Part shown: positions 2,172 through 62,291 of the stretch, piece after piece
Position numbering within the stretch: the first letter of the stretch is position 1
How the letters are laid out: each line of letters starts with the position of its first letter
Source of the DNA: Aquilaria yunnanensis
Lineage: Eukaryota; Streptophyta; Magnoliopsida; Malvales; Thymelaeaceae
DNA: 64,000 bases
Reading direction: 5' to 3'
Assembly: GCA_039654915.1 (NCBI GenBank)
Contig: CM077594.1
Location: forward strand, 90,410,893-90,474,892
Program-made: the position numbers and the translations under genes
The notes under the pieces: generated by a model
The model's input: only the letters and a program-made list of their open reading frames with translations
What the model was told of the DNA's origin: nothing
The model's database searches: none

Positions 2172-2915
<744 letters not shown>

Positions 2916-11081: not shown

Positions 11082-11086
11082 ACCCC

Positions 11087-11110
<24 letters not shown>
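11082..11110 (+). repeat. Poly-C run downstream of the VTT gene
   Basis: A long uninterrupted C tract followed by C-rich sequence and a poly-A run, about 150 nt past the VTT stop codon and possibly within its 3' UTR. Length is prone to sequencing and assembly error. Confidence 0.7.
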
Positions 11111-43914: not shown

Positions 43915-43919
43915 ATGTT
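43915..43919 (+). repeat. Target site duplication, left copy
   Basis: ATGTT directly abuts the left LTR; the same five bases directly follow the right LTR at 62287-62291. Confidence 0.9.
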
Positions 43920-44191
43920 TGTGGCAACGTGCGGGTTTTCGGGAGTCGCCACCAATCGGTTTTCTTAGGTCGATTGGTCACCTTAAAATTGGTCTGCGAG
44001 AGTTCGGGGATCGGGAGTACGGTTACGTTAAAACAACTTTGTTAAAACGCCCAAAAATTGGCACCTTAGTTGATTTTAATTTTGTTTTGCTTTGCTTTTA
44101 AATAATTCTCAGTTAATTTTCAAAATTAGAAATTTTAACTGGATTAGTCGAAATGTGGATTTTTAAATTAATTTGTATAAAATTTTATACT

Positions 44192-44400
44192 TCCGAACCA
44201 TGGACTCTGCCGAGTCATTTGGACACGGAAGATTTTGATTCCGAACCATGGACTCTGCCGAGTCATTTGGACACGGAATTTGACGAAATTTTAATCCATA
44301 TCGTAAAAATATGAATTTTTTATCTTTTTATTTAATTTATTTATTTTAAAAGTTTGATATTTTCCAAACCGTAGATCCTGCCGGATCATCCGGATATGGA
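44192..44400. repeat. 38-bp palindromic motifs in the LTR
   Basis: TCCGAACCATGGACTCTGCC...ACACGGA occurs at about 44192 and 44241, a diverged copy (CCGTAGATCCTGCCGGATCATCC) at about 44363, and another at about 45340. Each has a small palindrome (GACTC-TGCC-GAGTC or equivalent) inside TCC...GGA ends. The same set is in the other LTR 15,385 bp to the right. Could be protein-binding sites for LTR regulation. Confidence 0.6.
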
Positions 44401-44472
44401 AATTATTTTAATTTAATTAAATTTTTCTAAGCGTGACTTTTTGATTATGTCAAACTAATTTTTTTAGATTAA

Positions 44473-45225
44473 TTAAAAAGAAGTTTATCTAATCTAATCC
44501 TATAATTAAGCTTAACATTAATTTCTAAACTAATTCATAACTTTAATAATCCAAACAAAACTTAAAAAGTAAAACAATGGCTAATTTGTAAATCAGAACA
44601 ATATTAGAGTCTAAAATATACAAATCACATAAGACTAGGGGCAAATTATGTATTTAAAATATTTATCTAACCAAATCATACGATTATACTTAGTAATAAT
44701 TCTTTAAGTTTATTCATACCCTTAATTAAATGAACAAACAAAGACATAAAAGAGAATAAACATTAATGGCCAAATTGCAATTCAAAACAACCTTAAAGTC
44801 TCAGACGAACAAATCAAATAAATCCGAGGATCAATTATCTATTAAAATTACCTATCTAACCTAATCATATAATTAAGTTTAATGACAATTTCTAAGTTAG
44901 TTTATGCGTTTAATTATTTGAACAAACAAAACACAAAATAAAGAACATAAGTAAATCAGAGATCAAGTTGTAAATCAAAACAAACTTAAAGTTTCAAATG
45001 AACAAATCAGATAAATCTGAAGACAAATTATTTATTTAAATTATTTATATATAAGCTAATCATATAGTTAAACTTAATGTTAATTGCTAAGTGAATTTTA
45101 CACCTTTAATTAACTGAATAAACAAAAACATAAAAAAAAGAAAATAAACATCAGTGGCTAAATTGTAAGTCAAAACAAACTTAAAGTCTCAGATAAATCA
45201 AATAAATCTAGGGATTTAACTAGGA
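44473..45225. repeat. Tandem AT-rich repeats of about 180-190 bp in the LTR
   Basis: About four diverged units share phrases such as TATCTAACC(T/A)AATCATA, TTAATTA..TGAACAAACAAA, and CAAAACAA(A/C)CTTAAAGT. Copy differences within one LTR exceed differences between LTRs, so the repeats predate this insertion. The same block lies at 59858-60610 in the other LTR. Confidence 0.65.
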
Positions 45226-46907
45226 TTAAGCCAAAATTAGACTTTCGGCTCAGATTTGGATCAACAACAGATCGATTTGCGAGCTATGTTTCATTATTTA
45301 ATTTTAATTTTTGTTTACTTTAAACAATTTTAAATTGATATCCAAACCATGGATTCTAACCGAATCATCTGGACATGGATTTTGATAATCGATCTTAGGT
45401 CAGATTTTCCAATAATTTATATGTTACTTAACCAATAATTTGGTACACATTAGATGCACTAATAGAATTAAAATTAAACTATTCTAAAAATAAGGATAAA
45501 TAAATAAATAAATAAACATATCAAAATCACAATCCTATGTTGTTCTCCTATATCAATTTAATAATCAAATTTAATGTAAGGTCAAACCAATATTAATAAA
45601 GAAAACAAAGAAAAATATGAATAATGAAAATCTTGCTGTCGGGGGTTAATCTGCAACATAAAATATGTCAGTGACTTAAATGAATAAAATAAAGATAACT
45701 AAGGACTAAATAAGAATTTTACCCAAAAAAGCAACTTTGACTTAGTCAAAACGCAAAAACGCGTCTGCCAGCGTTTTTACTTCTTCCTCTTCTCGCGACG
45801 GTGGCGCTGCAGCGATGGGATGGCGATGCAGCTGGGAAGGGGGTGGCGATTGCGCGGCGGAGGGAGAGCAACAGCCGGAGGACTAGGCCGGAAACTGGAG
45901 GAGCTTGGCGGGCGCAGCGGCAGGAGCTGGATGCGGCGGCTAGCGCAAGGCGAGGTGGGGTGAAGCAGAGAAAGAGAAAAGGTTGGCGGCAGAGGGGGAG
46001 CAGCAAGGCATGTCGGCAGAGGCTGGAACGGCGTCGTGGCGAACAGGGGGAACGACGCCGTGGGGAGGAGAGACGTTATCTGTGCTGACGGAGGGAGGAC
46101 AGCGTGGTGGAGGGGAGCTAGAAACGGCGACCGCGGGCTCGGACAGGATGCACGGCGAACGCTTGGGGACGGCGGGTTTGGCTAGCGGCAGAAGGGGAGG
46201 TGGCGCGATGCGAGGTGAGGATGATGGTGGTCGCGTCGGTGGCGAACTGGGATGGGAGAAGAAGAAGAGTGTTTTCTGTTTTTTTCTTTTCTTTTCGGGA
46301 AGGAGAGGCGAGAGTAGTTCGTGACTGAGAGCGTGAGAGTTCTTTTTTTTTTTTTTTTTTTTGTTTTAGGGAGATCCGAGAGAGAGAACCTGAGAGGGAG
46401 AGAGAAGAGAGTTTTTTGAGAGAGAGAAGAGAGAGCTCAGTGTCTTTTTTTTGTCTATTGTCCGTGTGTTTGAGTCTGTGGGAGAGAGAAGAAAGAGAGA
46501 GAAGCGTAGCAGAGAGCTCGCCCCCAAGGAGAAGCTGAGCCAGCCCCCCGTTTAATAATCCCCCTCAGAAGGATCGAGAAGGGAGATATTTTTAATTTTT
46601 TATTATTATTTATTTATTTTATTATATATATATATTTTTTATTACATATATATTTTTGATTCGATTTGATTTGATTTTTAACTAATTAATTTTTTTAATT
46701 AATTAATAATAATTTTTTTTAAACACACACAAACAGATATATATATTATTATATTTTGACTAAACTTATAAAACAAAAATGCCCCCTCCTAAATTAATTT
46801 TTATCAATAAATATATAATATTATTTTTAATTTAATTAATTAATATTTTTTAATTAATTAATAATTTTTTTTTATGAAGGTCGGACGAAATTGGGTGTCA
46901 ACAGCTG

Positions 46908-46916
46908 CCCCCCTTT
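46908..46916 (-). promoter_or_regulatory. Polypurine tract of the retrotransposon
   Basis: The minus strand reads AAAGGGGGG followed by CAGC and then the 3' LTR start TGTTGAC. This is where second-strand synthesis is primed. Confidence 0.7.
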
Positions 46917-47009
46917 GCATGCTTCATGGGACATGATGTATGCAAAGTAGTTACCAAATTTCGTCCGGCTTAGCTAGGCATTGAGAACCTTCTCGCCGCC
47001 TAAACTATG

Positions 47010-50000
47010 TGGTTAAGGAAAATTTTTTAGAGCCTCTGCGATAAGAACTCTCCCATCGTTGAAGGGAAAATTTGATAATTTTGAGGTTAAGGGTCCTACC
47101 TTAGAACCTCGACGATAGGAACTCTCCTATCGTTTGAAGGAAAATTGTTTGAATGAGGTTAAGGGTCCTACCTTAGAACCTCGACGATAGGAACTCTCCT
47201 ATCGTTTGAAGGAAAATTGTTTGAATGAGGTTAAGGGTCCTACCTTAGAACCTCGACGATAGGAACTCTCCTATCGTTTGAAGTAAAATTGATTGTTTTG
47301 AGGTTAAGGGTCCTACCTTAGAACCTCGACGATAGGAACTCTCCTATCGTTTGAAGGAAAATTGATGATTTTGAGGTTAAGGGTCCTACCTTAGAACCTC
47401 GACGATAGGAACTCTCCTATCGTTTGAAGGAAAATTGATTGTTTTGAGGTTAAGGGTCCTACCTTAGAACCTCGACGATAGGAACTCTCCTATCGTTTGA
47501 AGGAAAATTGATGATTTTGAGGTTAAGGGTCCTACCTTAGAACCTCGACGATAGGAACTCTTCTATCGTTTGAAGTAAAATTGATTGTTTTGAGGTTAAG
47601 GGTCCTACCTTAGAACCTCGACGATAGGAACTCTCCTATCGTTTGAAGGAAAATTGATGATTTTGAGGTTAAGGGTCCTACCTTAGAACCTCGACGATAG
47701 GAACTCTCCTATCGTTTGACGGAAAATTGATGATTTTGAGGTTAAGGGCCCTACCTTAGAACCTCGACGATAGGAACTCTCCTATCGTTTGAAGGAAAAT
47801 TGATGATTTTGAGGTTAAGGGTCCTACCTTAGAACCTCGACGATAGGAACTCTCCTATCGTTTGAAGGAAAATTGATGATTTTGAGGTTAAGGGCCCTAC
47901 CTTAGAACCTCGACGATAGGAACTCTCCTATCGTTTGAAGGAAAATTGATGATTTTGAGGTTAAGGGTCCTACCTTAGAACCTCGACGATAGGAACTCTC
48001 CTATCGTTTGAAGTAAAATTGATTGTTTTGAGGTTAAGGGTCCTACCTTAGAACCTCGACGATAGGAACTCTCCTATCGTTTGAAGGAAAATTGATGATT
48101 TTGAGGTTAAGGGTCCTACCTTAGAACCTCGACGATAGGAACTCTCCTATCGTTTGAAGGAAAATTGATTGTTTTGAGGTTAAGGGTCCTACCTTAGAAC
48201 CTCGACGATAGGAACTCTCCTATCGTTTGAAGGAAAATTGATGATTTTGAGGTTAAGGGTCCTACCTTAGAACCTCGACGATAGGAACTCTTCTATCGTT
48301 TGAAGTAAAATTGATTGTTTTGAGGTTAAGGGTCCTACCTTAGAACCTCGACGATAGGAACTCTCCTATCGTTTGAAGGAAAATTGATGATTTTGAGGTT
48401 AAGGGTCCTACCTTAGAACCTCGACGATAGGAACTCTCCTATCGTTTGACGGAAAATTGATGATTTTGAGGTTAAGGGCCCTACCTTAGAACCTCGACGA
48501 TAGGAACTCTCCTATCGTTTGAAGGAAAATTGATGATTTTGAGGTTAAGGGTCCTACCTTAGAACCTCGACGATAGGAACTCTCCTATCGTTTGAAGGAA
48601 AATTGATGATTTTGAGGTTAAGGGCCCTACCTTAGAACCTCGACGATAGGAACTCTCCTATCGTTTGAAGGAAAATTGATGATTTTGAGGTTAAGGGTCC
48701 TACCTTAGAACCTCGACGATAGGAACTCTCCTATCGTTTGAAGTAAAATTGATTGTTTTGAGGTTAAGGGTCCTACCTTAGAACCTCGACGATAGGAACT
48801 CTCCTATCGTTTGAAGGAAAATTGATGATTTTGAGGTTAAGGGTCCTACCTTAGAACCTCGACGATAGGAACTCTCCTATCGTTTGAAGGAAAATTGATT
48901 GTTTTGAGGTTAAGGGTCCTACCTTAGAACCTCGACGATAGGAACTCTCCTATCGTTTGAAGGAAAATTGATGATTTTGAGGTTAAGGGTCCTACCTTAG
49001 AACCTCGACGATAGGAACTCTTCTATCGTTTGAAGTAAAATTGATTGTTTTGAGGTTAAGGGTCCTACCTTAGAACCTCGACGATAGGAACTCTCCTATC
49101 GTTTGAAGGAAAATTGATGATTTTGAGGTTAAGGGTCCTACCTTAGAACCTCGACGATAGGAACTCTCCTATCGTTTGAAGGAAAATTGATGATTTTGAG
49201 GTTAAGGGCCCTACCTTAGAACCTCGACGATAGGAACTCTTCTATCGTTTGAAGTAAAATTGATTGTTTTGAGGTTAAGGGTCCTACCTTAGAACCTCGA
49301 CGATAGGAACTCTCCTATCGTTTGAAGGAAAATTGATGATTTTGAGGTTAAGGGTCCTACCTTAGAACCTCGACGATAGGAACTCTCCTATCGTTTGAAG
49401 GAAAATTGATGATTTTGAGGTTAAGGGCCCTACCTTAGAACCTCGACGATAGGAACTCTCCTATCGTTTGAAGGAAAATTGATGATTTTGAGGTTAAGGG
49501 TCCTACCTTAGAACCTCGACGATAGGAACTCTCCTATCGTTTGAAGGAAAATTGATGATTTTGAGGTTAAGGGCCCTACCTTAGAACCTCGACGATAGGA
49601 ACTCTCCTATCGTTTGAAGGAAAATTGATGATTTTGAGGTTAAGGGTCCTACCTTAGAACCTCGACGATAGGAACTCTCCTATCGTTTGAAGTAAAACTG
49701 ATTGTTTTGAGGTTAAGGGTCCTACCTTAGAACCTCGACAATAGGAACTCTCCTATCGTTTGAAGGAAAATTGATGATTTTGAGGTTAAGGGCCCTACCT
49801 TAGAACCTCGACGATAGGAACTCTCCTATCGTTTGAAGGAAAATTGATGATTTTGAGGTTAAGGGTCCTACCTTAGAACCTCGACAATAGGAACTCTCCT
49901 ATCGTTTGAAGGAAAATTGATGATTTTGAGGTTAAGGGCCCTACCTTAGAACCTCGACGATAGGAACTCTCCTATCGTTTGAAGGAAAATTGATGGAATG
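47010..50000. repeat. 40-copy tandem array of a 73-bp unit
   Basis: One degenerate unit (47010-47082) is followed by 40 units from 47083 to about 49999, nearly all 73 bp (three are 72). Units differ at few positions (GTCC/GCCC, GATGATTTT/GATTGTTTT, CTCC/CTTC). Each unit holds two hairpins: GAGGTTAAGG pairing with CCTT-AG-AACCTC, and ACGATAGG pairing with CCTATCGT around AACTCT. Marker variants repeat every 730 bp (AAGTAAAATT at 47281, 48011, 48741), showing a ten-unit higher-order repeat. Tat/Ogre elements often carry tandem repeats at this place, and such arrays can seed satellite DNA. Confidence 0.95.
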
Positions 50001-50545
50001 AGGTTAAGGAAATCTCCTTGAACCTCGAGCGAAATTTATATGAAAGCAATTAGAATTGGAATAATTTTCTTCGAAAGTGTGAATTTGCATAATAGGCGAG
50101 TGCGAAATTTTAGACTTCGATAAAATGAGTGAATCTTGATGATGACAATATCGCTAACAAATTATGTAAAGGGAACGGATGTTTGGAATCAATATCCAAG
50201 GTTCATCTAATATTTTCTTTAGTAAATATAGATTCGCTTGAGAGATATGTCATCCAAATAAGGTTGAAGCTTAACTATCCTAAAATGTTATGCCTAATAG
50301 ACCTAATAGGATGCGTCTCAAGAGCAATAAAAATTACTCTTTACTCAGCCATTCCAACCTAAAGGCATTGTCCTATGGTTTTAATATCAGCATGGACGAG
50401 ACTATCTTATAAGATAAAAAAAGAAATTCCCTGAAAGAAAAACTAAAACACGAAAGAAAATGCTGATAATAAAACTAAAGGACAAGCAAAACGGATCGGA
50501 TCACTTCTTCTTCCACAATATTTCAACAGGGTTAGTAGAGGACTA

Positions 50546-51175
50546 TTATGGGGTCGAACTGTTCGGGAAAGACTGTCGCGTCCAGTCTATCTGAATCATT
50601 GCTGGATCTGGTTCAGGAACAAAAGCTTGTATTTTATCTAGCAATTCTTCAGCAGTTGTTGCGGATATTATGATTCGCCGTGCCACTCTTGATATAAAAT
50701 TCTTCTGCATAGCATAATCCATAAAAGCTATCAGACCTGTAAAGAAATTGTTAACATTTAAAAGCCCAATGGGTTTCTTATGCAAATTAAGTTGGGCCCT
50801 GGAAGCAATTTGAAAGACTTCTCCCAATGTGCCAAAACCACCTGGTAGAGCGATAAAAGCATCAGCATTTAAAAGCATTTGTAACACACGCTCTTGTAAA
50901 TTTTTAACCACTAATTCTTCTCCAATCGTACCCCCAGAAACAAATTTCAAAGGTCCAGGGATGATGCCCAAAACTTGACTTCCTCCTAAAGATGCTGCTG
51001 ATGCTACACCTCCCATTAATCCGACACTACCTCCTCCATAAACTAAATGTATTTTTCGCTCAGCTAATACTCTACCCAAATGGTTGGCTGCCTTTAAATA
51101 CTCTTCATCTTTTCCAGGAAAAGCCCCAGAAAATACACAAATACTTCGGGATTTACGAGTTGGGGTTTTCTCCAT
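50546..51175 (-). CDS. LOG: LOG-family cytokinin-activating phosphoribohydrolase, intronless retrotransposon cargo
   Basis: From the Met at 51175 the product is 209 aa; the frame is open to 51262, but that part overlaps the TATA region. LOG enzymes hydrolyse cytokinin riboside 5'-monophosphates to free, active cytokinin and ribose phosphate in the cytosol and nucleus. Visible hallmarks are ICVFSG (Rossmann start), YGGGSVGLMG, LGIIP, and ADAFIALPGGFGTLGE, which keeps the PGGxGTxxE motif with its catalytic Glu. The usual HxRK segment is changed (LQERVLQM): the Arg is kept, the Lys is not. KPIGLLNVNNFF and the C-terminal VPEPDP...QIDW resemble the LOGL10-type clade from memory. Length is near the family norm. 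Host LOG genes have several introns; this copy has none and no frameshift, so it looks like a captured retrocopy. Activity is plausible but unproven. Confidence 0.88.
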   Translation of the reverse strand: MEKTPTRKSRSICVFSGAFPGKDEEYLKAANHLGRVLAERKIHLVYGGGSVGLMGGVASAASLGGSQVLGIIPGPLKFVSGGTIGEELVVKNLQERVLQMLLNADAFIALPGGFGTLGEVFQIASRAQLNLHKKPIGLLNVNNFFTGLIAFMDYAMQKNFISRVARRIIISATTAEELLDKIQAFVPEPDPAMIQIDWTRQSFPNSSTP

Positions 51176-51208
51176 TCCTATCTTTATCCTTGTGAGAAAA
51201 GAGGATAT

Positions 51209-51215
51209 ATTTATA
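51209..51215 (-). promoter_or_regulatory. TATA box upstream of the LOG ORF
   Basis: The minus strand reads CTTCATCTCTATAAATATA. The same CATC(T/A/G)CTATAAAT phrase precedes two of the three sister cargo ORFs. Only about 35 nt separate it from the LOG ATG, so the leader would be very short. Confidence 0.5.
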
Positions 51216-51239
51216 GAGATGAAGAGATAAGGCAATAAT

Positions 51240-51712
51240 TTTATTTTCAAGAGTGGATACATTATCGCCAGCTATTCATAGTAGTCACGGGTATGACTCT
51301 GGTCAGGTATGGGTACACTATCGTTAAAAGAGGAGGAAAATTTTCAAAACAGCTGCTAGCATGTACAGTAGTCGCGACTGTAGCTTATGTCAGGAGTAGG
51401 TACATGATTGTCGGATGAGAAGGAAAATTTCAAAAGTGGCAGGTATATACAGTAGTCATAATTATAGCTCATGTCAGGAGTGGGTACATTATGGGAGGAA
51501 AATTTCAAAAGCGTCAGTTAGCATGTACAGTATCGTGACTATGGCTTATGTCAAGAGTGGATACATTATTGCTGAAAGAGGAGGAAAATTTCAAAAGCGA
51601 CAGCTAGCACGTACAGTAATCGTGACTTTGGTTCATGTCAGGAGTGGATACATTATTATCAAAAGGGGAGGAAAATTTCAAAAGCGACAGCTAGCACGTA
51701 CAGTAATCGTGA
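51240..51712. repeat. Five to six tandem repeats of about 75-90 bp upstream of LOG
   Basis: Units share GGAGGAAAATTTCAAAAGCG, GCTAGCACGTACAGTAATCG and GTCAGGAGTGGATACATTAT. Related single copies lie between the cysteine-cluster ORFs (about 52455-52530 and 53240-53335). The block is upstream of the LOG TATA box in the transcribed direction, so it may work as an enhancer array. Confidence 0.75.
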
Positions 51713-51763
51713 CCTTGTTCCGTCTTCTACTGGCTTTGCGTCCAGTAACGGCTTCAATGCTTT

Positions 51764-52312
51764 CTATGAATCAGTGATTTGCATCTCATCTAGCTTTTTT
51801 ACAAACTGGCAAACAGGGTCGTTTAGGGTCAGATTCCCAAGACTGTAACGTTCTCGTTCTTTTTGGAGAATTATCCATAATCCAACAACCTCAAATTGCA
51901 CTATTCCGCAAGAATGCGCTTCAAGAACCTCTCGGATATCTTCCAGAGATTCCTTACGCAAGCCATTCTTGATGAATTTTATTCTATCATTACGATTTCT
52001 GGTGATAACTCCTGGAGAACGACATTTATTGCCGCAAATCCACCATCCACAATTGTGACAGACGCCTAGCCTCTTTGCTCTTCTCTTTTTGGCATAAATG
52101 CTTTTACCAAAGCCGGGCATACGGGGAAAGAACGCATCTGGAACTTCACCAGCCGAACGAACTTTAGCTTCGATTAGCCATCGCACATTATCAGGAATGC
52201 CTTTGTGCATAAATAGTCGGAATCGTTCACATCTAGCTTGATAAACCTTTTTAAGAACATTTATTGGGAAAGAAGGGAAATATTTTCGTAGAGCGGAAAG
52301 AGAAGGCTCCAT
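51764..52312 (-). CDS. Cysteine-cluster basic ORF, copy 3 (viral nucleic-acid-binding-protein-like cargo)
   Basis: The frame opens at 52327, but the second Met (52312) aligns with the sister copies and gives the same 182 aa. It has the same layout as copies 1 and 2: a conserved N-terminus (SALRKYFPSFPINVLKKVYQ), a basic run of Lys/Arg, then four clustered cysteines spaced C-x2-C-x4-C-x3-C, a helical C-terminal half with a lone HSCG, and a conserved tail. It is the most diverged at the cluster (Trp-Trp in place of Arg-Trp). No stops or frameshifts. The resemblance to carlavirus/vitivirus-type nucleic-acid-binding proteins is in the basic-plus-cysteine layout only; cysteine spacing differs. Not a known plant host family to me. 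Confidence 0.6.
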   Translation of the reverse strand: MEPSLSALRKYFPSFPINVLKKVYQARCERFRLFMHKGIPDNVRWLIEAKVRSAGEVPDAFFPRMPGFGKSIYAKKRRAKRLGVCHNCGWWICGNKCRSPGVITRNRNDRIKFIKNGLRKESLEDIREVLEAHSCGIVQFEVVGLWIILQKERERYSLGNLTLNDPVCQFVKKLDEMQITDS

Positions 52313-52430
52313 TGATGAATGAGGCATTTAAGAGAAAAAGAAAGAAATTAGTGATTGGAGGAAATGGAAATAACTGAATTTGGGAGTTATGGAGTACCGT
52401 ATCCAGAAGGAAGAACACGCATTTATAGTG

Positions 52431-52437
52431 ATGAAAG
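52431..52437 (-). promoter_or_regulatory. TATA box upstream of cysteine-cluster copy 3
   Basis: The minus strand reads TTTCATCACTATAAATGCGT, about 110-120 nt before the ATG. It is nearly identical to the site before copy 2. Confidence 0.6.
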
Positions 52438-52576
52438 GATAATGCGTTTATTACACTTACGGAAGTAAGTACATTATTGCCAAAAGAAAAGACAAATGAC
52501 AGCTTATATGTACAGCAATCATGACTGTGGCTCTCATCTTCCACTAATTCATGTCCAGTAATGGCTTCAATGCCTT

Positions 52577-53125
52577 CTATAAGTCGGGGATTTGCTTCCC
52601 ATCTAGTTTTCTTACAAACTGACAAACGGGGTCGTTTAAAATCACATTCCCAAGACTGTAACGGTTTCGTTCTTTATGGTAAGTCCTCCATAAACCGATA
52701 ATTTCACCTTGCACTTTTCCACAAGAATGCGTTTCAAGAGTCTCTCGGATATCTTTCAGAGACTCCTTACGCAGGCCATTCTTAATGAATTTTCTTTTAT
52801 CTTCACGATTTATGGAGATGTATCCTAAAGAGCGACATTTAGTATTACAATTCCATCGCCCACATTTATAACACACGCCTAGTCTCTTTGCTATTCGCCT
52901 TTTGGCATAACGGCTTTTACCTAAACCTGGCATGCGGGGCATAAATGCATCTGGAACTTCACCCGCCAGACGGACCTTAGCTTCAATTATCCACTGCACA
53001 TTATCGGGAATGCCTTTGCGTGTAAAAACTCTGATTCTTTCACATCTAGCAAGGTAGATCTTTTTAAGGACTTTTATTGGAAAGGAAGGAAAGTATTTTC
53101 GCAGTGCAGAAAGAGTAGAATCCAT
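52577..53125 (-). CDS. Cysteine-cluster basic ORF, copy 2 (viral nucleic-acid-binding-protein-like cargo)
   Basis: 182 aa, full length relative to its sisters and by eye about two thirds identical to them. Residues about 70-82 are rich in Lys/Arg. Cys85, Cys88, Cys93 and Cys97 form a C-x2-C-x4-C-x3-C cluster that could bind one zinc ion. The basic stretch directly before a small zinc cluster is the layout of nucleic-acid-binding proteins from several plant RNA viruses of the Betaflexiviridae, some of which suppress RNA silencing. That is family knowledge; the link is inferred from layout and short-range similarity, without a search. It has its own TATA element and lies 246 bp from copy 1 and 264 bp from copy 3. 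Separate short mRNAs are therefore likely. Confidence 0.6.
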   Translation of the reverse strand: MDSTLSALRKYFPSFPIKVLKKIYLARCERIRVFTRKGIPDNVQWIIEAKVRLAGEVPDAFMPRMPGLGKSRYAKRRIAKRLGVCYKCGRWNCNTKCRSLGYISINREDKRKFIKNGLRKESLKDIRETLETHSCGKVQGEIIGLWRTYHKERNRYSLGNVILNDPVCQFVRKLDGKQIPDL

Positions 53126-53205
53126 TGATGAGAGAAGAATTTGAGAGAAGAGGGAAATGAATCAGTTATTGAAGGAAACTTAGATAACCGACTGGAAGAA
53201 CATGC

Positions 53206-53212
53206 ATTTATA
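53206..53212 (-). promoter_or_regulatory. TATA box upstream of cysteine-cluster copy 2
   Basis: The minus strand reads TTTCATCGCTATAAATGCAT, about 85 nt before the ATG, implying a leader of about 50 nt. Confidence 0.6.
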
Positions 53213-53371
53213 GCGATGAAATGGATAACGTGTCGATTACACTTACGGGAGCAAATACATTATTAAAAGAAAAATGGAAAATTTTAAATATGATAAATTG
53301 TATGTACAGTGATTGTGACTGTGGCTCACATCTTCCACTGGTTTTACGTCCAGTAACGGGATTAATGGCTT

Positions 53372-53920
53372 CTATGAGTCGAGGATTTGCTTCCCATCCA
53401 GTTTTCTTACAAGCTGACAAATAGGGTCGTTTAACGTCAGATTCCCGGGACTGTATCGTTCTCGTTCTTCATGAAAAATGCTCCATAAATCGAGAAGTTC
53501 ACGTTGCACGGATCCACAAGAATGCGTCTCAAGAGTCAATTGGATATCATCCAATGAGTCCTTACTCAGGCCATTCTTAATGAATCGTATTTTATCTTCT
53601 CGATTATCAGAGATCATCCCTAAAGAACGACATTTAGTATTACAGGTCCAGCGTCCGCATTTATGACAGACGCCTAGTCTCCTCGCTCTTCGTTTTTTGG
53701 CATAAGAGCTTTTGCCTACACCAGGCATGTGAGACACAAATGCCTCTGGGATTTCACCTGCCAGACGAACCTTAGCTTCAATTAACCACCGCACATCTTC
53801 AGGGATTCCTTTATGCATCAGAGCTCTTAGTCGTTCACAGCGAACTTGGTAGATCTTTTTGAGGATGTTCATTGGGAGAGAAGGAAAATATTTTCGCAAG
53901 GCAGAAAAAGTAGGATCCAT
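53372..53920 (-). CDS. Cysteine-cluster basic ORF, copy 1 (viral nucleic-acid-binding-protein-like cargo)
   Basis: 182 aa, first of the three tandem copies in the element's direction. The basic run spans about residues 70-81 and is followed by Cys85, Cys88, Cys93, Cys97 (C-x2-C-x4-C-x3-C). The C-terminal half looks helical and charged and ends in a KLDGK-type tail shared by all copies. Its upstream DNA shares GGAGTACCGTATCC with copy 3, but I see no TATA phrase at the matching place, so this copy may have lost its promoter or use the LTR transcript. No signal peptide or membrane span. The same functional caution applies as for the sister copies: nucleic acid binding is likely, silencing suppression only a hypothesis. 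Confidence 0.6.
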   Translation of the reverse strand: MDPTFSALRKYFPSLPMNILKKIYQVRCERLRALMHKGIPEDVRWLIEAKVRLAGEIPEAFVSHMPGVGKSSYAKKRRARRLGVCHKCGRWTCNTKCRSLGMISDNREDKIRFIKNGLSKDSLDDIQLTLETHSCGSVQRELLDLWSIFHEERERYSPGNLTLNDPICQLVRKLDGKQILDS

Positions 53921-54059
53921 TTTCTAGGAGAAAGTAAAAGAAAGGAGGGAGGAAATGATCAGTTATTATGGGCAACTGAGAGAACCGACTTGAGAGTCAC
54001 GGAGTACCGTATCCGCCGCTTAACCGGAAAAGTAGATCCTACTTCATTTTGACGTGAAT

Positions 54060-54460
54060 GATATTTCTTATCTTTGATATTCCATCCAGCTGACATTGAT
54101 CCAGTCCTTGATTATTGAATCCATTGTCCGCTTTTGACAAAGTTTCAACGACAATATTTCTTGATGTCTGCCTTATCTTTGACCACAGCTATCTCTTATC
54201 TTGGATGCTGCTAAGCTGGCATCAATCCTGTCCTTCCAGGTGTAGTCTCGATTATTGAATCAATTGCCAGGCTTTTGACAATATTGTCTACTTTATATTT
54301 TTTTGATATCTGCCTTATCCTTGGCTATAGCTATCTCTTATCTTGGATACTACTAGCTGGCGTCAATCCTATCCTTCTAGGTGTAGCCTCGATTATTGAA
54401 TCGGTAGCCAAGCTTTTGACAATATTGTCTACTTTATCCTTGAATTCCTGATGCGGGTTG
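54060..54460. repeat. Tandem repeats of about 130-140 bp in the spacer
   Basis: About three diverged copies share CTATCTCTTATCTTGGAT, GGTGTAG(T/C)CTCGATTATTGAAT and CTTTTGACAATATTGTCTAC. They lie upstream of cysteine-cluster copy 1 in the element's direction. Confidence 0.6.
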
Positions 54461-56940
54461 GTCCCGCATATTAGCTGTGTATCCAGTGATAGATTGGTAA
54501 AAGCTGATGATATTGAGATCTCAGCTTATATTGCTGTAACTGTGCTGTGAATGTAATTCCCGTTTGGTCCTTGTTATGTAAAGGCTATGTATGCATGATA
54601 TGAAATGCATGAATGCAGAGCATGTGTAACTAATGGCTTTTTTTTGTATGGATCTAGTTCTTTATGTCCTTGTTTTACTGGATCCTCTTTGTGATGGCCT
54701 TCTTGGACTATCATTGAATCTCTTTATGCTTTCCAGCTTTTGTTCGCTACCTCAAAAGCCCAACTTTTTTCAAAATCCCCTTTCTTTGACTTGTTCTTGA
54801 ATTTTGGCCTCAATTTCTTTAAAGTTGGCCCGCCTCATAATTTATATCTCTTTCGGGTACTCATTCATTGTCATGGATTTGATACCATCAAAGGCTTTAC
54901 TTTCAATGTCTGCTTTGCCGCTTTTCTTGTGACCGTGGCGACACTTACTTATCCTCATGTTATAATCTGAATGATTGCTCTTCCTTGAGCTCAAGTTTTG
55001 ATCCATAAGACTTGCCCCCTTGTCTATTGAACTTCTTTCTTGGCAGTACTCTTTTTATGCTTAGTAGAGACTACTTTGCCCCCTTGAATATGGTGTTTAT
55101 GTGGATAAAAGGTATCATCTCATCTTTGATTTAACAGAAGGTTGAGCATTTCTAGACCTTTGTGATGGCACTTGATCGTAAATTTCTCTTACAAGAACCA
55201 CATCTTATTAAAGAAAGACTCAAGCTATCTCCTTACTTTTAAGTCTACATACATTAATGAATAATGGTTTGGCCTTAAAGAAAAACTTTCATCAATTTTC
55301 AAAGCTTGACAAAGTAATTTACGGTCTTTGTTTTTAATTAAAATATCCTGCCATTCTTCCCTTTCCAACTCGAAGACATAAACTGTGCAAGGCAATAAGG
55401 TAGAAACATGATTCACAATAATAGCATTTTAACTAAATGAGGATGATATCGAGAGGTAAATGTTAGGTGTGAGGAAAGTTAAGTTTGAATGTTTTTTTTT
55501 TGTGGCAGTCTTTTAGCTGAATGAGAATGATATTAAGAGGTAAATATTAGGTCTGAGTAAAGTTAAGTTTCAGTGGTGTGAAAGAAGGGTCTTTTAATAC
55601 TACTCGTGAGCAGTATTAAATAAGGTAGAAACATGGTTCGCAATGATAGTCCTTTTAACTGAATGAGGATGTTCGGTTTGAGAAAAGTTAAATTTAAGTG
55701 GTGTGGAAGAAGGGTCTTTTAATACTACTCGTGAGCAAATTTGATTATGGTGAAAAACTTAATAGTGATGACCTCAACTTGCCACTCTTTCCAGAAAGTT
55801 AGACCTCATCTGTTGCCCCCCAACTATTGTGATCTTTATGCACGCTTGTCTTGAGGATTGTTTTTGTCTTCTAAACCGCCTTTGTAGGTTTTCAGTCTAG
55901 AATCCATAACTCACTTTTTTTCTTTTTTTTTTTCTTTTGCTCTAGTTTGAGCCCTTTTTCCTCTTTTTTTTTTGTTTTTTTTTTGTTTCCCCCTTTTTTT
56001 TTGTGAGCTATGGTGATGACATACTTGATAACTCTCTTGAAGCGAGATGACTCAAGTGGCCTTGCTTGCTCGTGTTTGTTCTTAGTTCTTTTTTGGTTTT
56101 GAATTTTTCCTTGTTGGCTTTTTGATGGAAGGGATGAACTTCTCTTTCTTTTTGGAGTTTGTGTTGCAGAGAACCGAGATTATAGCCCTCTTGAAGTGAG
56201 ATGACACAAGTGGCTTTTCTTGCTTGTGCTTGCTCTCAGTCTTTTTTGGTTTTGAATTTTTCCTTTAATGGCTTTTGATGGAAGGGAAAAACTTCTCTTT
56301 CTTTTTGGAGTTTGTGTTGCGGAAAACTGAGAATTTTTTTTTTATTGAGCGTTTGTGAGAATTGGGAGGCCACTGAAGTCATTTAATATGAGAGCTACCT
56401 TGTTTGGAAGCTAACCCCAGACTTCTTGCAAGGATGTTGGTAACCACTATGAATTCTTTTTTTTTTAGAGTTGGGGTGCAACATATGAAATCCTTCTTAC
56501 TAGATTTGACAGCACTTTCAAGATCGCCACTATTAAATCTTCCTTAACTTTTTATTTTCACCCACGAGTAGTATCGTTTTCAAAGTGAAGTGTGATAGCA
56601 ATAATGGATAGTATAATGGAAAGGAGTGAGAGATAGATGTAAAAATGGAATTTTTGGTAGAAAATGGTAGAATATGTGGATGTAAGAATGGAAATTTTAG
56701 GTAAAAAGTGGTAGAATGCACACATTACATCTTTTTGTTGTTCCAAGAAAAAGAATACCAGGTGTCCATTTAACAAAGACTACACCCTAGATTCTGGACT
56801 AAATCTAGGAGATTTTTACTATTAGATTACTTTGTCAAGCTTTCAAAGATGCAAGCTTAGTAAAAGGATTCCCTGTTATTCAAAAGTGTGTGCGAACTGT
56901 TAGATCGGATCTGACTTAGAGTCCTTCCAAAATCAATGTA
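54461..56940. other. Spacer of the retrotransposon where pol would be expected
   Basis: No protease, RT, RNase H or integrase motif is readable in any frame. It holds local duplications: about 55420-55740 (TTTTAATACTACTCGTGAGC twice) and about 56029-56335, two copies of roughly 155 bp containing TGGTTTTGAATTTTTCCTT and CTTCTCTTTCTTTTTGGAGT. Poly-T tracts are frequent. Short minus-strand ORFs here are unrecognised. Confidence 0.5.
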
Positions 56941-56949
56941 ATTCCAGCT

Positions 56950-58227
56950 CGAAATCTTCACTTTCAATTACCAATCACATCATGGCCTAGGAATTTAAAC
57001 TCGACCAACTATTGGACCTTGATTTTCAGTGCCACACAATTTTCAATTAAATGCCCGATTAAACATTTTGTATTTGGCGTTTGGGTCATTCCAACTTGGA
57101 AGAGGAGGCTACTTGATCTTTGCTACCGTTGGTATGGGTGGTAGCAGGTTTGTAACTTGTGAAAATTGAATCGACTTGAGTAGCATTTCTTCCCATTGGT
57201 GGTAGTATGTGGTACTGATGAGGAAGCCTTGGAGATTACAATCTCAATAGGATATCCTTTCACTTGTAACGTGAGTGGTATTGGACCATAGGACTTGGAG
57301 ATGATGTTTTGGACAGCTCCGCTTCTTTTATTGAAACATCCTCCAATTGAAGAATCGACCAGCTTTCCTGTTTTAATTCCAAATTCGATCTTTTCTCCAG
57401 ATAAAACCATATTTGAAAAGCTACTTGAAGTGTTCCCAACTAGTTTTTCATAAAATGGTTTATTTAGTGTTTGGGTAAACAGGGTGATCAATTCTCTTTC
57501 TATCATAGATGGTTGAACTTGTGCGGCTAAGTGTCTCCACCTTTATGCGTATTCCTTAAAAGTCTCTTGTTCCTTCTTCTCTATATTCTGGAGAATTTGG
57601 TGATCTAGGGGTAAGTCTATAACATGCTCACAGTTACTGATTGAGAGCTTAAACGAGGTCATTCCAGGCTTTGATGTTTCTCAGACCTTGACTTAGATAC
57701 CATTGTAGCACTGACTTTGTAAGATTTTCTTGAAAAAGTGATATCAACACTTTCTCGTCTCTTGTGAGTGGTTGTATTTTCCTTAGAAACAGCGTAATAT
57801 AATTGATGGGATAACTTGTTCCATCATATTTCACAAAGTCAGGTATCTTAAAGTATGAGGGAATCACAACATCTGGTATCAAGCAAAGATTGTTCATCAA
57901 AAGAGATAAAGTGCCTCTTTCAATGGTCCGCAGTCTCTTTTCTATGATCTTGAGTTTTTTTAGTATTCTCTTCTTCTTTAAGCAGGAGCTTCTTTTCTTC
58001 AAAAATTGGACTGTGCCTTAGATGAATGATATCAGATAGACCTGAGTCATGAAAGAGCTTCTCTTGAACTGAGACCTGTTCTGAGTGAATTGGGGAGGAT
58101 AGGTTAGATCTTGTGGGTCATTGACGGGGACTTGGGTCGCTAACTCCATTAACTGTTTCATTTGCTCAGCCATACTTTCTATATTGGACTTCATATCTAT
58201 GAGACGTCCTTTGGTTTGTTCTGCCAT
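56950..58227 (-). pseudogene. Decayed gag of the retrotransposon
   Basis: Three adjacent minus-strand pieces (58227-58018, 58002-57649, 57506-57123) together read as a Ty3/gypsy gag. The N-terminal piece is coiled-coil-like (MAEQMKQLMEL). The middle has LIPDVVIPSYFKIPDFVKYDG and VLQWYL, the retrotransposon capsid signature. The third has MIERELITLFTQTLNKPFY and VGNTSSSFSNMV. A further stretch down to about 56950 reads GHLIENCVALKIKVQ, like the end of a Tat-type gag, but with stops. Frame breaks separate the pieces, so no full-length capsid protein can be made. Confidence 0.8.
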
Positions 58228-58289
58228 TAATCTTATTTGGAGCCGAGCTGGATATCGGTGTTGATGGCCAATTTTACCGTTTCTAAAGT

Positions 58290-58553
58290 GAGATTCATTT
58301 TATTAAACTTTATATGCAATTGATTGATGTGATGGATGTATGTAATACAAAATGAGATTATGTTTTTATCAGACTTTGTATGCATGTATTTAATGTAATG
58401 GATGCGTGCAATACAAAATGAGATTATGTTTTATCAAACTTTGTATGCACGTGATTGATGTAATGGATGCATGCAATACAAAATGAGATTATGTTTTTAT
58501 CAGACTTTGTATGCACATGATTGATGTAATGGATGCATGCAATAAGTGAGTTT
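58290..58553. repeat. Tandem repeats of about 65 bp in the element leader
   Basis: Three to four copies share TGATGTAATGGATGCATGCA, ATACAAAATGAGATTATG and ATCA(G/A)ACTTTGTATGCA. They lie between the primer binding site and gag. Confidence 0.8.
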
Positions 58554-59282
58554 GATTATCAACTATCGTAGAACTTCGAGATTTTTAGTTGTCATTTAGA
58601 AAGATCAAAAGTTATTACAGTTTGGTGCGTGGTTTTGATGCATGACAAAAAATTGTACAAAACAGAAGTATAACAAAAGAATAACAAGGTTAACAACGAG
58701 TTAGATATCAATTAATAACACATGAACTATTACGAAAAGAAGTCTGAGCCATAAATATAAAACACAAAGAAACCCAAGGATAAGGTAACAAAAATGGCAT
58801 AACAATAACATGCTTATAGTGTTGGTAAATGGTAGAAATTCTATGGTCAGTTCTATGGTTAAGTGGGGAATTCTATATGCATAAGGTGGCTTATCAAAAA
58901 GGCCAAGGATAGTTCCCGAATCCCGTCACTAAATTATAGTGACAGCCCGATTCCTTACCCTCTAGGGTTAATGTAAGGAATGGATTAATTCGAGTCGTAG
59001 CTTTTCGTGGGCCCATGCAGAGACTAACCGTCTCAGAAGGCAATACACTACTTTGCTACTTTGAAACCGGTGAAGGCTTGGAGACCGTGGCCTCACAAGG
59101 ACAGCAACACCAATTCCGCTTAGAAAGAATCGTGTTTGATTTAAGGAAGCTCGGGTATAGAGCTTCATTTTGTGAATGCATTATGCATGTTTAGAATAAG
59201 TAAATATAACATATAAATTCACATAAAAATAAACAAAACAGAACAAAATAAATCAACTTTTAGGCTTGACTCACTAACCAGG

Positions 59283-59301
59283 GTCCCCAGTGGAGTCGCC
59301 A
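59283..59301 (-). other. Primer binding site of the retrotransposon
   Basis: The minus strand reads TGGCGACTCCACTGGGGAC three bases after the 5' LTR. It begins with the TGG expected opposite a tRNA CCA end and resembles the tRNA-Arg-type site I recall for Ogre/Tat elements. The exact tRNA should be checked. Confidence 0.75.
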
Positions 59302-59304
59302 AGC

Positions 59305-62286
59305 TGTGGCAACGTGCGGGTTTTCGGGAGTCGCCACCAATCGGTTTTCTTAGGTCGATTGGTCACCTTAAAATTGGTCTGCGAGAGTTCGGGGATCGGG
59401 AGTACGGTTACGTTAAAACAACTTTGTTAAAACGCCCAAAAATTGGCACCTTAGTTGATTTTAATTTTGTTTTGCTTTGCTTTTAAATAATTCTCAGTTA
59501 ATTTTCAAAATTAGAAATTTTAACTGGATTAGTCGAAATGTGGATTTTTAAATTAATTTGTATAAAATTTTATACTTCCGAACCATGGACTCTGCCGAGT
59601 CATTTGGACACGGAAGATTTTGATTCCGAACCATGGACTCTGCCGAGTCATTTGGACACGGAATTTGACGAAATTTTAATCCATATCGTAAAAATATGAA
59701 TTTTTTATCTTTTTATTTAATTTATTTATTTTAAAAGTTTGATATTTTCCAAACCGTAGATCCTGCCGGATCATCCGGATATGGAAATTATTTTAATTTA
59801 ATTAAATTTTTCTAAGCGTGACTTTTTGATTATGTCAAACTAATTTTTTTAGATTAATTAAAAAGAAGTTTATCTAATCTAATCCTATAATTAAGCTTAA
59901 CATTAATTTCTAAACTAATTCATAACTTTAATAATCCAAACAAAACTTAAAAAGTAAAACAATGGCTAATTTGTAAATCAGAACAATATTAGAGTCTAAA
60001 ATATACAAATCACATAAGACTAGGGGCAAATTATGTATTTAAAATATTTATCTAACCAAATCATACGATTATACTTAGTAATAATTCTTTAAGTTTATTC
60101 ATACCCTTAATTAAATGAACAAACAAAGACATAAAAGAGAATAAACATTAATGGCCAAATTGCAATTCAAAACAACCTTAAAGTCTCAGACGAACAAATC
60201 AAATAAATCCGAGGATCAATTATCTATTAAAATTACCTATCTAACCTAATCATATAATTAAGTTTAATGACAATTTCTAAGTTAGTTTATGCGTTTAATT
60301 ATTTGAACAAACAAAACACAAAATAAAGAACATAAGTAAATCAGAGATCAAGTTGTAAATCAAAACAAACTTAAAGTTTCAAATGAACAAATCAGATAAA
60401 TCTGAAGACAAATTATTTATTTAAATTATTTATATATAAGCTAATCATATAGTTAAACTTAATGTTAATTGCTAAGTGAATTTTACACCTTTAATTAACT
60501 GAATAAACAAAAACATAAAAAAAAGAAAATAAACATCAGTGGCTAAATTGTAAGTCAAAACAAACTTAAAGTCTCAGATAAATCAAATAAATCTAGGGAT
60601 TTAACTAGGATTAAGCCAAAATTAGACTTTCGGCTCAGATTTGGATCAACAACAGATCGATTTGCGAGCTATGTTTCATTATTTAATTTTAATTTTTGTT
60701 TACTTTAAACAATTTTAAATTGATATCCAAACCATGGATTCTAACCGAATCATCTGGACATGGATTTTGATAATCGATCTTAGGTCAGATTTTCCAATAA
60801 TTTATATGTTACTTAACCAATAATTTGGTACACATTAGATGCACTAATAGAATTAAAATTAAACTATTCTAAAAATAAGGATAAATAAATAAATAAATAA
60901 ACATATCAAAATCACAATCCTATGTTGTTCTCCTATATCAATTTAATAATCAAATTTAATGTAAGGTCAAACCAATATTAATAAAGAAAACAAAGAAAAA
61001 TATGAATAATGAAAATCTTGCTGTCGGGGGTTAATCTGCAACATAAAATATGTCAGTGACTTAAATGAATAAAATAAAGATAACTAAGGACTAAATAAGA
61101 ATTTTACCCAAAAAAGCAACTTTGACTTAGTCAAAACGCAAAAACGCGTCTGCCAGCGTTTTTACTTCTTCCTCTTCTCGCGACGGTGGCGCTGCAGCGA
61201 TGGGATGGCGATGCAGCTGGGAAGGGGGTGGCGATTGCGCGGCGGAGGGAGAGCAACAGCCGGAGGACTAGGCCGGAAACTGGAGGAGCTTGGCGGGCGC
61301 AGCGGCAGGAGCTGGATGCGGCGGCTAGCGCAAGGCGAGGTGGGGTGAAGCAGAGAAAGAGAAAAGGTTGGCGGCAGAGGGGGAGCAGCAAGGCATGTCG
61401 GCAGAGGCTGGAACGGCGTCGTGGCGAACAGGGGGAACGACGCCGTGGGGAGGAGAGACGTTATCTGTGCTGACGGAGGGAGGACAGCGTGGTGGAGGGG
61501 AGCTAGAAACGGCGACCGCGGGCTCGGACAGGATGCACGGCGAACGCTTGGGGACGGCGGGTTTGGCTAGCGGCAGAAGGGGAGGTGGCGCGATGCGAGG
61601 TGAGGATGATGGTGGTCGCGTCGGTGGCGAACTGGGATGGGAGAAGAAGAAGAGTGTTTTCTGTTTTTTTCTTTTCTTTTCGGGAAGGAGAGGCGAGAGT
61701 AGTTCGTGACTGAGAGCGTGAGAGTTCTTTTTTTTTTTTTTTTTTGTTTTAGGGAGATCCGAGAGAGAGAACCTGAGAGGGAGAGAGAAGAGAGTTTTTT
61801 GAGAGAGAGAAGAGAGAGCTCAGTGTCTTTTTTTTGTCTATTGTCCGTGTGTTTGAGTCTGTGGGAGAGAGAAGAAAGAGAGAGAAGCGTAGCAGAGAGC
61901 TCGCCCCCAAGGAGAAGCTGAGCCAGCCCCCCGTTTAATAATCCCCCTCAGAAGGATCGAGAAGGGAGATATTTTTAATTTTTTATTATTATTTATTTAT
62001 TTTATTATATATATATATTTTTTATTACATATATATTTTTGATTCGATTTGATTTGATTTTTAACTAATTAATTTTTTTAATTAATTAATAATAATTTTT
62101 TTTAAACACACACAAACAGATATATATATTATTATATTTTGACTAAACTTATAAAACAAAAATGCCCCCTCCTAAATTAATTTTTATCAATAAATATATA
62201 ATATTATTTTTAATTTAATTAATTAATATTTTTTAATTAATTAATAATTTTTTTTTATGAAGGTCGGACGAAATTGGGTGTCAACA
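59305..62286 (-). repeat. 5' LTR (2,982 bp)
   Basis: Direct copy of 43920-46903, apparently identical apart from two fewer T's in the poly-T run. In the transcribed (minus) direction it starts TGTTGACACCCAATTTCGTC and ends GTTGCCACA. It supplies the promoter for the element RNA. I could not place its TATA box or transcription start with confidence. Confidence 0.95.
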
Positions 62287-62291
62287 ATGTT
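62287..62291 (+). repeat. Target site duplication, right copy
   Basis: ATGTT directly after the right LTR, identical to 43915-43919. Confidence 0.9.

Follow-up and report, generated by a model that had tools for sequence, protein, structure and literature searches.

A young LTR retrotransposon of Aquilaria yunnanensis with a LOG-like gene and three NABP genes under purifying selection among copies

An LTR retrotransposon of 18.4 kb lies at positions 43920-62286 of the window, the 64,000-nt stretch of the Aquilaria yunnanensis genome (842 Mb) that was analysed. Its 5' LTR (59305-62286) and 3' LTR (43920-46903), both on the minus strand, were identified by LTR pair search and alignment, and copies of a TSD, ATGTT, flank them on the left (43915-43919) and on the right (62287-62291). 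A putative PBS, TGGCGACTCCACTGGGGACC (59282-59301, minus strand), is located immediately internal to the right LTR, and a polypurine tract (PPT), CAAAGGGGGGCAGC in the sense orientation (46904-46917, minus strand), adjoins the left, 3' LTR, which together indicate that the sense strand of the element is the minus strand. Paired LTRs, TSD, PBS-like site and PPT identify the element as an LTR retrotransposon. The two LTRs align with no substitutions, the sole difference being one 2-base gap within a T run, and the window copy is very young. Its sense strand carries four open ORFs, one LOG-like and three encoding paralogous NABPs. No RNA family reached the gathering score anywhere in the window, and no exact match to the PBS or the LTR ends was found among viral contigs.

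The stretch at 57123-58017 (minus strand) is a decayed gag: in-frame stops and frame changes divide it into pieces that are bounded by stops and do not all share one frame. Comparison of these pieces with Pfam gave no gag family and only sub-cut-off matches to other families, and one piece compared with the PDB gave nothing; they were recognised as gag because the Pfam-confirmed gag of a related gag-pol copy matches them at 61-63% identity, with stops. The RT and integrase of the same relative gave no tblastn match at 1e-10 in the window element, and by this absence the copy is non-autonomous. A preliminary description of the locus had listed matching LTRs with an ATGTT duplication, a broken gag, no readable pol and four uninterrupted sense-strand ORFs between gag and the 3' LTR, and had judged the copy very young and non-autonomous; this observation is confirmed.

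The relative is a 21-kb family copy with PMD, gag, RT, RNase H, aRH and integrase in the Ogre arrangement, plus the same cassette of LOG and NABP genes, so that the cassette is not peculiar to one non-autonomous element, as had been supposed. In this copy (L114) the Pfam domain order is RT_RNaseH, RVT_3 and integrase, and it contains the aRH of the Ogre lineage, which is common to Retand too. The stretch L115:1212-2927 matches DUF7745 (5.4e-56) and PMD (35.2 bits, cut-off 34.9); a PMD-type ORF is present in 57% of Ogre elements according to the accessible sections of PMC6317226. A 192-base gap separates the gag-side ORF of L114 from its RT ORF, and the same sections give a mean of 274 bases for the often spliced gap between the gag/protease ORF and the RT-RH-INT ORF of Ogre (PMC6317226). 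No protease domain was found among the Pfam matches of the gag-pol copy. Since a copy with gag and pol in Ogre order carries the same cassette, the window copy appears to derive from an Ogre-like family and to have lost pol; from these sequence features we assign the family, with moderate confidence, to an abundant Ogre type (Tat group, Ty3/gypsy) of which the window copy would be a young pol-less member.

The LOG-like gene occupies 50546-51175 (minus strand, 209 aa from the likely start) within a full open frame of 238 aa (50546-51262) that matches PF03641 with an E-value of 4.1e-30; the start is probably at codon 30 (51175), because a TATA element falls inside the longer frame. The best PDB chain was At2g37210 (E 2.1e-51). 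The PF03641 domain and the PGGxGTxxE motif, kept with its final Glu and alongside the Arg of the RK pair (the invariant arginine), are those of a LOG phosphoribohydrolase. Four LOG proteins, plant and bacterial, served as the only references; of the 51 residues that do not vary among them, 40 are kept and 11 changed, and the changes cluster, with 9/20 invariant residues altered in 93-130 versus 2/31 elsewhere (Fisher p 0.0018). Given the alterations in 93-130, cytokinin activation by the product is uncertain: where the preliminary description proposed a LOG-type cytokinin activator, the LOG type stands, and the activating role is only putative.

The same pattern bears on a second reading, which we consider a serious possibility though not the more probable one, namely that the protein has ceased to be a cytokinin enzyme and now serves the element as a repurposed nucleotide hydrolase or binder with a LOG fold; it might, for instance, act on free or modified nucleotides, or be a regulatory subunit. 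The clustered changes would fit, as would a long branch away from the plant LOGs, but the retained PGGxGTxxE with its final Glu, the retained Arg and the strong constraint on the gene (0.084 in the main clade, see below) speak against it. In the tree, three element LOGs cluster with At LOG3/LOG8 at a support of 0.915, on this long branch, so that long-branch error is possible. A bacterial origin was rejected, the element LOGs grouping with At LOG3/LOG8 in comparison with 80 bacterial loci and two bacterial PDB chains, and tblastn found no LOG relatives in viral contigs. The genome holds 3,660 candidate LOG places. A 95-residue Arabidopsis LOG query gave at least 150 scored matches in the host genome (47-53% identity), which by their frame length look like element copies; none of the host's own LOG genes was recognised among the matches listed for this query.

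The three NABP genes, each of 182 aa and on the minus strand, are NABP-A (51764-52312, open frame to 52327; PF05515 26.3 bits, PF01623 21.5 bits), NABP-B (52577-53125; 28.1 and 20.8 bits) and NABP-C (53372-53920; 29.1 and 29.1 bits). The Pfam cut-offs are 23 bits for PF05515 (Viral_NABP), reached by 3/3, and 20.9 bits for PF01623, reached by 2/3, with NABP-B falling just short (20.8). PF05515 groups cysteine-rich proteins of carlaviruses and related viruses. In the NABPs a basic stretch, AKKRRAKRLG, precedes a cluster of four cysteines, and the triplicated, virus-like basic cysteine protein proposed earlier is borne out by three ORFs above the PF05515 cut-off. Proteins of PF05515 and PF01623 presumably occur also in vitiviruses, besides carlaviruses, allexiviruses and mandariviruses.

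A protein of plant or transposon origin might also have come to resemble the flexivirus CRPs convergently, in a short basic zinc-finger segment. This is unlikely: the viral families are matched modestly, over just ~30-90 residues per profile, tblastn found no NABP relatives in viral contigs, and the predicted fold (pLDDT 43) was unusable and left out of the fold search, but two separate Pfam virus families are matched above or near cut-off, both by 16/16 chosen diverse NABPs at E 0.01 with no other family, and 0/9 shuffled controls match either. No NABP relatives were found in prokaryote contigs, and the PDB gave only matches at E 0.6 and 0.78, and none with a 16-member profile. The NABP genes lie inside an LTR element rather than in the 3'-terminal position of a flexivirus RNA genome, and Pfam showed no family of replicases, movement proteins or coat proteins among the 16 window pieces scanned; they are therefore homologues and not viral genes in place.

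Pairwise dN/dS of the window NABP paralogs is 0.27, 0.20 and 0.39 (dS 0.46-0.97), compared with 0.74-1.51 in shifted-frame controls, and values as low were reached in 0, 0 and 21 of 2,000 neutral simulations for the three pairs. Chance ORFs were rejected on the Pfam matches, the shuffles and dN/dS.

Fourteen further LTR-paired loci, all young copies, were taken from one search list by LTR similarity to the window. LOG is present in 15/15 further element bodies, at all 14 loci, accompanied by 2-4 NABPs each, mostly open, and at 14/14 loci the cassette follows gag or pol and precedes the 3' LTR. RT or integrase was not found in 13 of the 14; the remaining one, the 21-kb gag-pol copy, has RT, INT and PMD matches. 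In three other loci gag matches go down to about 38 aa, and the cassette is retained in all. Internal stops occur in 2/16 LOGs and 4/45 full-length NABPs, and the cassette genes are the best-kept coding part of the sampled pol-less copies. The comparison with other copies that the preliminary description had proposed thus found the ORFs present and mostly open, with dN/dS below 1.

The ratio among copies is 0.084 for LOG in the main clade and 0.22 over all 15, and 0.25-0.40 for the NABPs. Minimum synonymous:nonsynonymous changes are 40:11 for 12 copies of LOG and 59.5:41.5 for all 15, and 29:25 for NABP-A (12 copies), 34.5:48.5 for NABP-B (13) and 56:53 for NABP-C (14). Over transition weights of 1-8, the synonymous excess has p-values of 1.7e-16 to 3.8e-12 for the 12 LOGs, 5e-7 to 2e-4 for NABP-A, 1.1e-4 to 0.023 for NABP-B, the weakest case, and 3.9e-11 to 5.5e-6 for NABP-C, all of which are approximate because the copies are related and the NABPs exchange segments. 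Purifying selection acts on the cassette ORFs among copies, including copies without pol. That the ORFs are passengers, brought in by a chance nested insertion or a fresh capture and open merely through the youth of the element, is very improbable; the window copy is indeed very young, but the same cassette at 14/14 other loci already contradicts this reading, as do the divergence between the two LOG clades (dS 0.25, dN 0.07) and that of the NABP paralogs (dS 0.46-0.97, dN/dS 0.20-0.39). Nested insertion was rejected both on the recurrence of the cassette at these 14 loci and because no terminal repeats bound the ORFs among the repeats listed (20/32 direct families, 8 inverted pairs).

TATA elements on the minus strand are found upstream of LOG (CATCTCTATAAAT, 51209-51221), NABP-A (CATCACTATAAAT, 52421-52433) and NABP-B (CATCGCTATAAAT, 53206-53218), in 15/15, 14/15 and 12/12 copies, respectively, window included, and upstream of other NABPs in 6/7. 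The shorter CTATAAAT has a background of 125 in 6,200 random 200-base stretches from the same loci. No TATA element was found within 200 bases upstream of NABP-C, the first NABP gene, in any of 15 copies, window included, so that a promoter model does not fit every gene. Tandem repeats are also present: a 73-base array of 40.9 copies between LOG and the 3' LTR (47027-50009), 87-base repeats (4.9 copies) between NABP-A and LOG (51302-51713) and 141-base repeats (2.4 copies) upstream of NABP-C (54106-54437). The arrays adjoining LOG vary among copies, the 73-base repeat of the window matching others only partly, and no fixed NABP target is therefore seen.

The best explanation combines a cassette with its own promoters, NABPs that serve the element, a LOG-driven metabolic shift, a benefit in cis and gag-pol in trans, and as a whole we give it an even chance of being right. 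The cassette would be transcribed from internal promoters, separately from the LTR transcript. The NABPs could act on the DNA or RNA of the element as transcriptional activators or anti-silencing factors, on the model of VANC in VANDAL transposons and the CRPs of carlavirus, and by analogy with their viral relatives they may interfere with small-RNA silencing. The LOG product may tilt cytokinin or nucleotide metabolism in favour of dividing, permissive cells. Any benefit would be largely in cis, because pol-less copies, often without most of gag, keep the cassette, and full-length relatives would supply gag-pol in trans. The earlier reading of the locus as a whole is partly supported.

The retention of a basic Cys-cluster NABP in 13/13 loci without RT matches, three of them with almost no gag, could alternatively mean that NABPs are packaging or nucleocapsid-like helpers that bind element RNA and aid broken-gag derivatives into particles made in trans, and PF05515 and PF01623 are nucleic-acid binding by name. 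We think this improbable, as NABP is also retained, four times, in the copy with its own gag and pol domains, the TATA elements suggest separate expression, and LOG is left unexplained. More far-reaching, and tentatively held as a rather doubtful extension, is that an RNA-virus-type pathogenicity gene was taken up, tandem-amplified and joined to a hormone-enzyme gene, giving a cis-acting host-manipulation cassette that maintains even copies without gag and pol; the NABP and hormone-enzyme genes would share a common core promoter, and the family may be a source or a sink of flexivirus CRPs.

Accessory ORFs are common in plant retrotransposons. With abundant copies, several of the sampled ones very young, and a cassette that is the best-kept coding part of the sampled pol-less copies, this family makes the role of accessory genes directly testable. 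If the NABPs work like viral CRPs, a silencing or transcription factor would have been exchanged between RNA viruses and LTR retrotransposons, and the family would be a counterpart among retrotransposons to anti-silencing by VANC. Should LOG prove active, the 3,660 candidate places would amount to very many copies of a hormone gene under element control, which would bear on growth and regeneration in this plant.

Steinbauerova et al. 2011 reportedly described two Athila-like elements with LOGL4 similarity. The accessible parts of PMC9289625, which cite that study, report LOG (YgdH-domain) ORFs in Citrus Gypsy elements and, with the frequency filter off, in Populus. These are likewise LOG-family ORFs inside plant Gypsy elements, but no NABP genes, common promoters or selection test are described in those parts (PMC9289625). 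The combination had been thought undescribed; this may hold for the NABP cargo, since a literature search mostly outside subscription papers found no LTR element described as carrying virus-type NABP genes, and fails for LOG in Gypsy, which is in print (PMC9289625, in part). The same parts describe a large Phalaenopsis Gypsy family with a fixed AlkB RNA demethylase ORF, a domain also present in Alphaflexiviridae and Betaflexiviridae (PMC9289625); it differs in its cargo and in having a single ORF. The Ogre lineage shares with the gag-pol copy a PMD ORF before gag, then gag, RT, RNase H and an aRH-type domain before integrase, traits described in sections of PMC6317226. However, the present family adds a sense 3' cassette of LOG and tandem NABP genes, and 13/14 sampled loci are without an RT match.

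VANDAL elements are DNA transposons. They encode an accessory anti-silencing protein, VANC, and their tandem repeats vary among related elements (PMC5735166, in part). The present family, also mobile, resembles them in encoding an accessory protein of its own and in having tandem repeats that differ from one relative to the next, but the kind of element differs, the protein is unrelated, and anti-silencing is shown there and proposed here. Among viral CRPs, passages of PMC12172455 describe silencing suppressors, one transcription factor that causes hyperplasia, and mandarivirus CRPs (223 aa) with an NLS and zinc-finger motifs. The element NABPs likewise have a basic stretch and a four-cysteine cluster and fall in the same Pfam families, whereas they match the viral profiles in part and are chromosomal, retrotransposon-encoded and arranged in tandem with TATA elements.

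The element (43920–62286, minus strand) is an LTR retrotransposon with LTRs of 2,984 and 2,982 bases, flanked on each side by the target duplication ATGTT. The LTR alignment shows no substitutions, the sole difference being a gap of 2 bases within a run of T. At a plant substitution rate of ~1.3e-8 per site per year, this puts the insertion no further back than some tens of thousands of years. Inward from the 5' LTR lie a PBS-like site, a 5' untranslated stretch, a decayed gag (57123–58017), a stretch in which a Pfam scan of selected pieces found no family above cut-off, three ORFs for virus-type nucleic-acid-binding proteins (NABP-C, 53372–53920; NABP-B, 52577–53125; NABP-A, 51764–52312), 87-base repeats, a LOG-like ORF (50546–51175), a 73-base array of 41 units and a purine tract. 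Elsewhere in the window, a three-unit polyubiquitin gene (2172–2864, minus strand) marks this as gene-bearing DNA, and a run of 28 C occupies 11083–11110. An open frame at 40748–41125 (plus strand), without a Pfam match, resembles what we take to be a Gypsy gag end, and is probably a remnant of another element.

All three window NABPs reached the Pfam cut-off for PF05515 (Viral_NABP), and two that for PF01623 (Carla_C4), the third falling 0.1 bit below; NABP-A shares 72% identity with NABP-B and 69% with NABP-C. Every member of a set of 16 NABPs picked for diversity, including the window's three, matched both families at E 0.01, with no further family listed, while none of nine composition-matched shuffles matched either. 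The LOG-like ORF matches PF03641 (4.1e-30), and its nearest PDB entry is Arabidopsis At2g37210 (89 of 196 aligned residues identical). In a tree whose bacterial members were 80 loci and two PDB chains, three element LOGs grouped with the two Arabidopsis LOGs on a long branch (support 0.915). The ORF is intronless, which is what passage in sense through an RNA stage would predict. Its product retains PGGxGTxxE, including the final Glu, and one invariant Arg, but of the 51 residues that LOG3, LOG8, P. aeruginosa LOG and YvdD all share, 11 are changed, so that cytokinin activation, judged from sequence, is possible but not assured. The changes concentrate in residues 93–130 (9/20 vs 2/31 elsewhere; Fisher p 0.0018, for a region picked after the data were seen).

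To identify other copies, the host genome (842 Mb, 345 contigs; the window is G000:C2:90410893-90474892) was probed with the LTR, giving 40 scored matches listed of 3,967 candidates. The sample comprised every paired-LTR locus among the listed matches except the window (14 loci, 15 bodies; nine unpaired matches omitted). Paired LTR ends were found at 13 loci (543–576 bases compared); they were identical at six and 98.1–99.8% identical at the other seven. One locus, G000:C7:34107280-34133700 (fetched as L116–L118), has three LTR matches and two consecutive bodies, an arrangement of the kind that results when the LTRs of tandem copies recombine. The preliminary description had treated the uninterrupted ORFs as cargo of the element, and they proved to be present and open in most copies: LOG was found in 15/15 bodies, with 2–4 NABPs in each. 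Two of 16 LOG rows had one internal stop each (window counted; two rows truncated by the stretch end). Among 45 full-length, gap-free NABPs, the window's three included, four had an internal stop and one lacked its ATG, and one more runs beyond the usual end; the 45 exclude four genes truncated where a stretch ends and one that has a one-codon gap. Genome-wide first-look searches gave 8,571 candidates for NABP-C and 3,660 for LOG, the best 150 of each being open and 99–100% identical; being ranked by score, these do not show what proportion of copies is open. A 95-residue query from Arabidopsis LOG3, chosen so that the window copy has no advantage, gave 150 scored rows, likewise ranked by score, at 47–53% identity, 148 of them stop-free over the matched stretch. 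Near-identical NABP-C matches are densely clustered at 82.2–82.8 Mb of contig C4 and may form a local family array.

An open frame is by itself weak evidence of selection, since a single such frame stays open in 11–37% of neutral simulations at the divergences tried. Among the window NABP paralogs, dN/dS was 0.27, 0.20 and 0.39 (shifted frames 0.74–1.51), values as low being reached in 0, 0 and 21 of 2,000 neutral simulations, respectively. For LOG, the minimum changes were 40 synonymous to 11 nonsynonymous in 12 main-clade copies (ratio 0.084) and 59.5 to 41.5 in all 15 (0.215). The among-copy ratios for NABP-A, -B and -C were 0.245 (n = 12), 0.401 (n = 13) and 0.268 (n = 14), omitting six full-length NABPs <88% identical to any window paralog. 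The synonymous excess persists over transition weights of 1 to 8 and is weakest for NABP-B (p 1.1e-4 to 0.023); these p-values are approximate, because the copies are related and the tandem NABPs exchange segments. Mosaic genes, with halves resembling different paralogs, occur in four fetched stretches (L099:7126-7671, L107:7620-8165, L112:494-1039 and L116:6848-7393), which suggests that tandem copies have undergone unequal crossing-over or conversion with each other.

With both strands counted, the window has three occurrences of the motif CATCNCTATAAAT, upstream of LOG, NABP-A and NABP-B. With slightly looser spacing, and in copies with at least 150 upstream bases read, this TATA element lies within 200 bases upstream of LOG in 15/15, NABP-A in 14/15, NABP-B in 12/12, other NABPs in 6/7 and NABP-C in 0/15; the shorter CTATAAAT was present in 125 of 6,200 random 200-base stretches from the same loci. 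These counts indicate that LOG and most NABPs have a putative core promoter in common, probably by descent, which the first NABP lacks. The spacer upstream of LOG holds the same kind of repeats, in variable number, in 14/14 copies read. The 9-mer AATTTTCCT is common to the 73-base array (47027–50009) and the 87-base repeats before LOG (51302–51713), and its recurrence may reflect a shared target or chance.

A fuller relative is found at C4:82320170-82342270, whose LTRs lie 21 kb apart and enclose a DUF7745/PMD ORF and then Pfam gag, G-patch, RT, RNase H, another RNase H-like domain and integrase. Four NABPs and LOG come after these, and pol is not a single open frame. RT, INT and PMD matches were confined to this locus among the 14, and gag in the others varies between long open frames carrying a Pfam gag domain, at two loci, and a 38-residue match, at three. 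The window gag matches that of the relative at 61–63% identity, interrupted by stops, and so is indeed broken, as noted earlier. The domain order and PMD ORF of this copy fit the Ogre lineage as outlined in PMC6317226.

A literature search, with most subscription journals outside its scope, found no report of NABP or related viral cysteine-rich protein (CRP) genes in an LTR retrotransposon. Related cases are described in two papers: LOG (YgdH) ORFs in Gypsy elements of Citrus, and of Populus with that paper's filter off, alongside PMD, G-patch, AIR1 and AlkB-type cargo (PMC9289625), and betaflexivirus-like replicase sequence in a cucumber chromosome (PMC3136472). No pol was found at 13 of the 14 sampled loci and little gag at several, but the cassette was dropped at none. 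Such retention is hard to explain by products shared freely in trans, which favours a mainly cis-acting role for the NABPs. We hypothesize that the NABPs would act mainly on the DNA or RNA of the element itself, and that LOG might tune the cell. According to PMC12172455, viral NABP relatives are RNA silencing suppressors, and that of chrysanthemum virus B is a transcription factor causing hyperplasia and leaf malformation. VANC proteins bring about a loss of methylation across the element's DNA, and the sites they target are often arranged as tandem repeats, which differ from one related element to another (PMC5735166).
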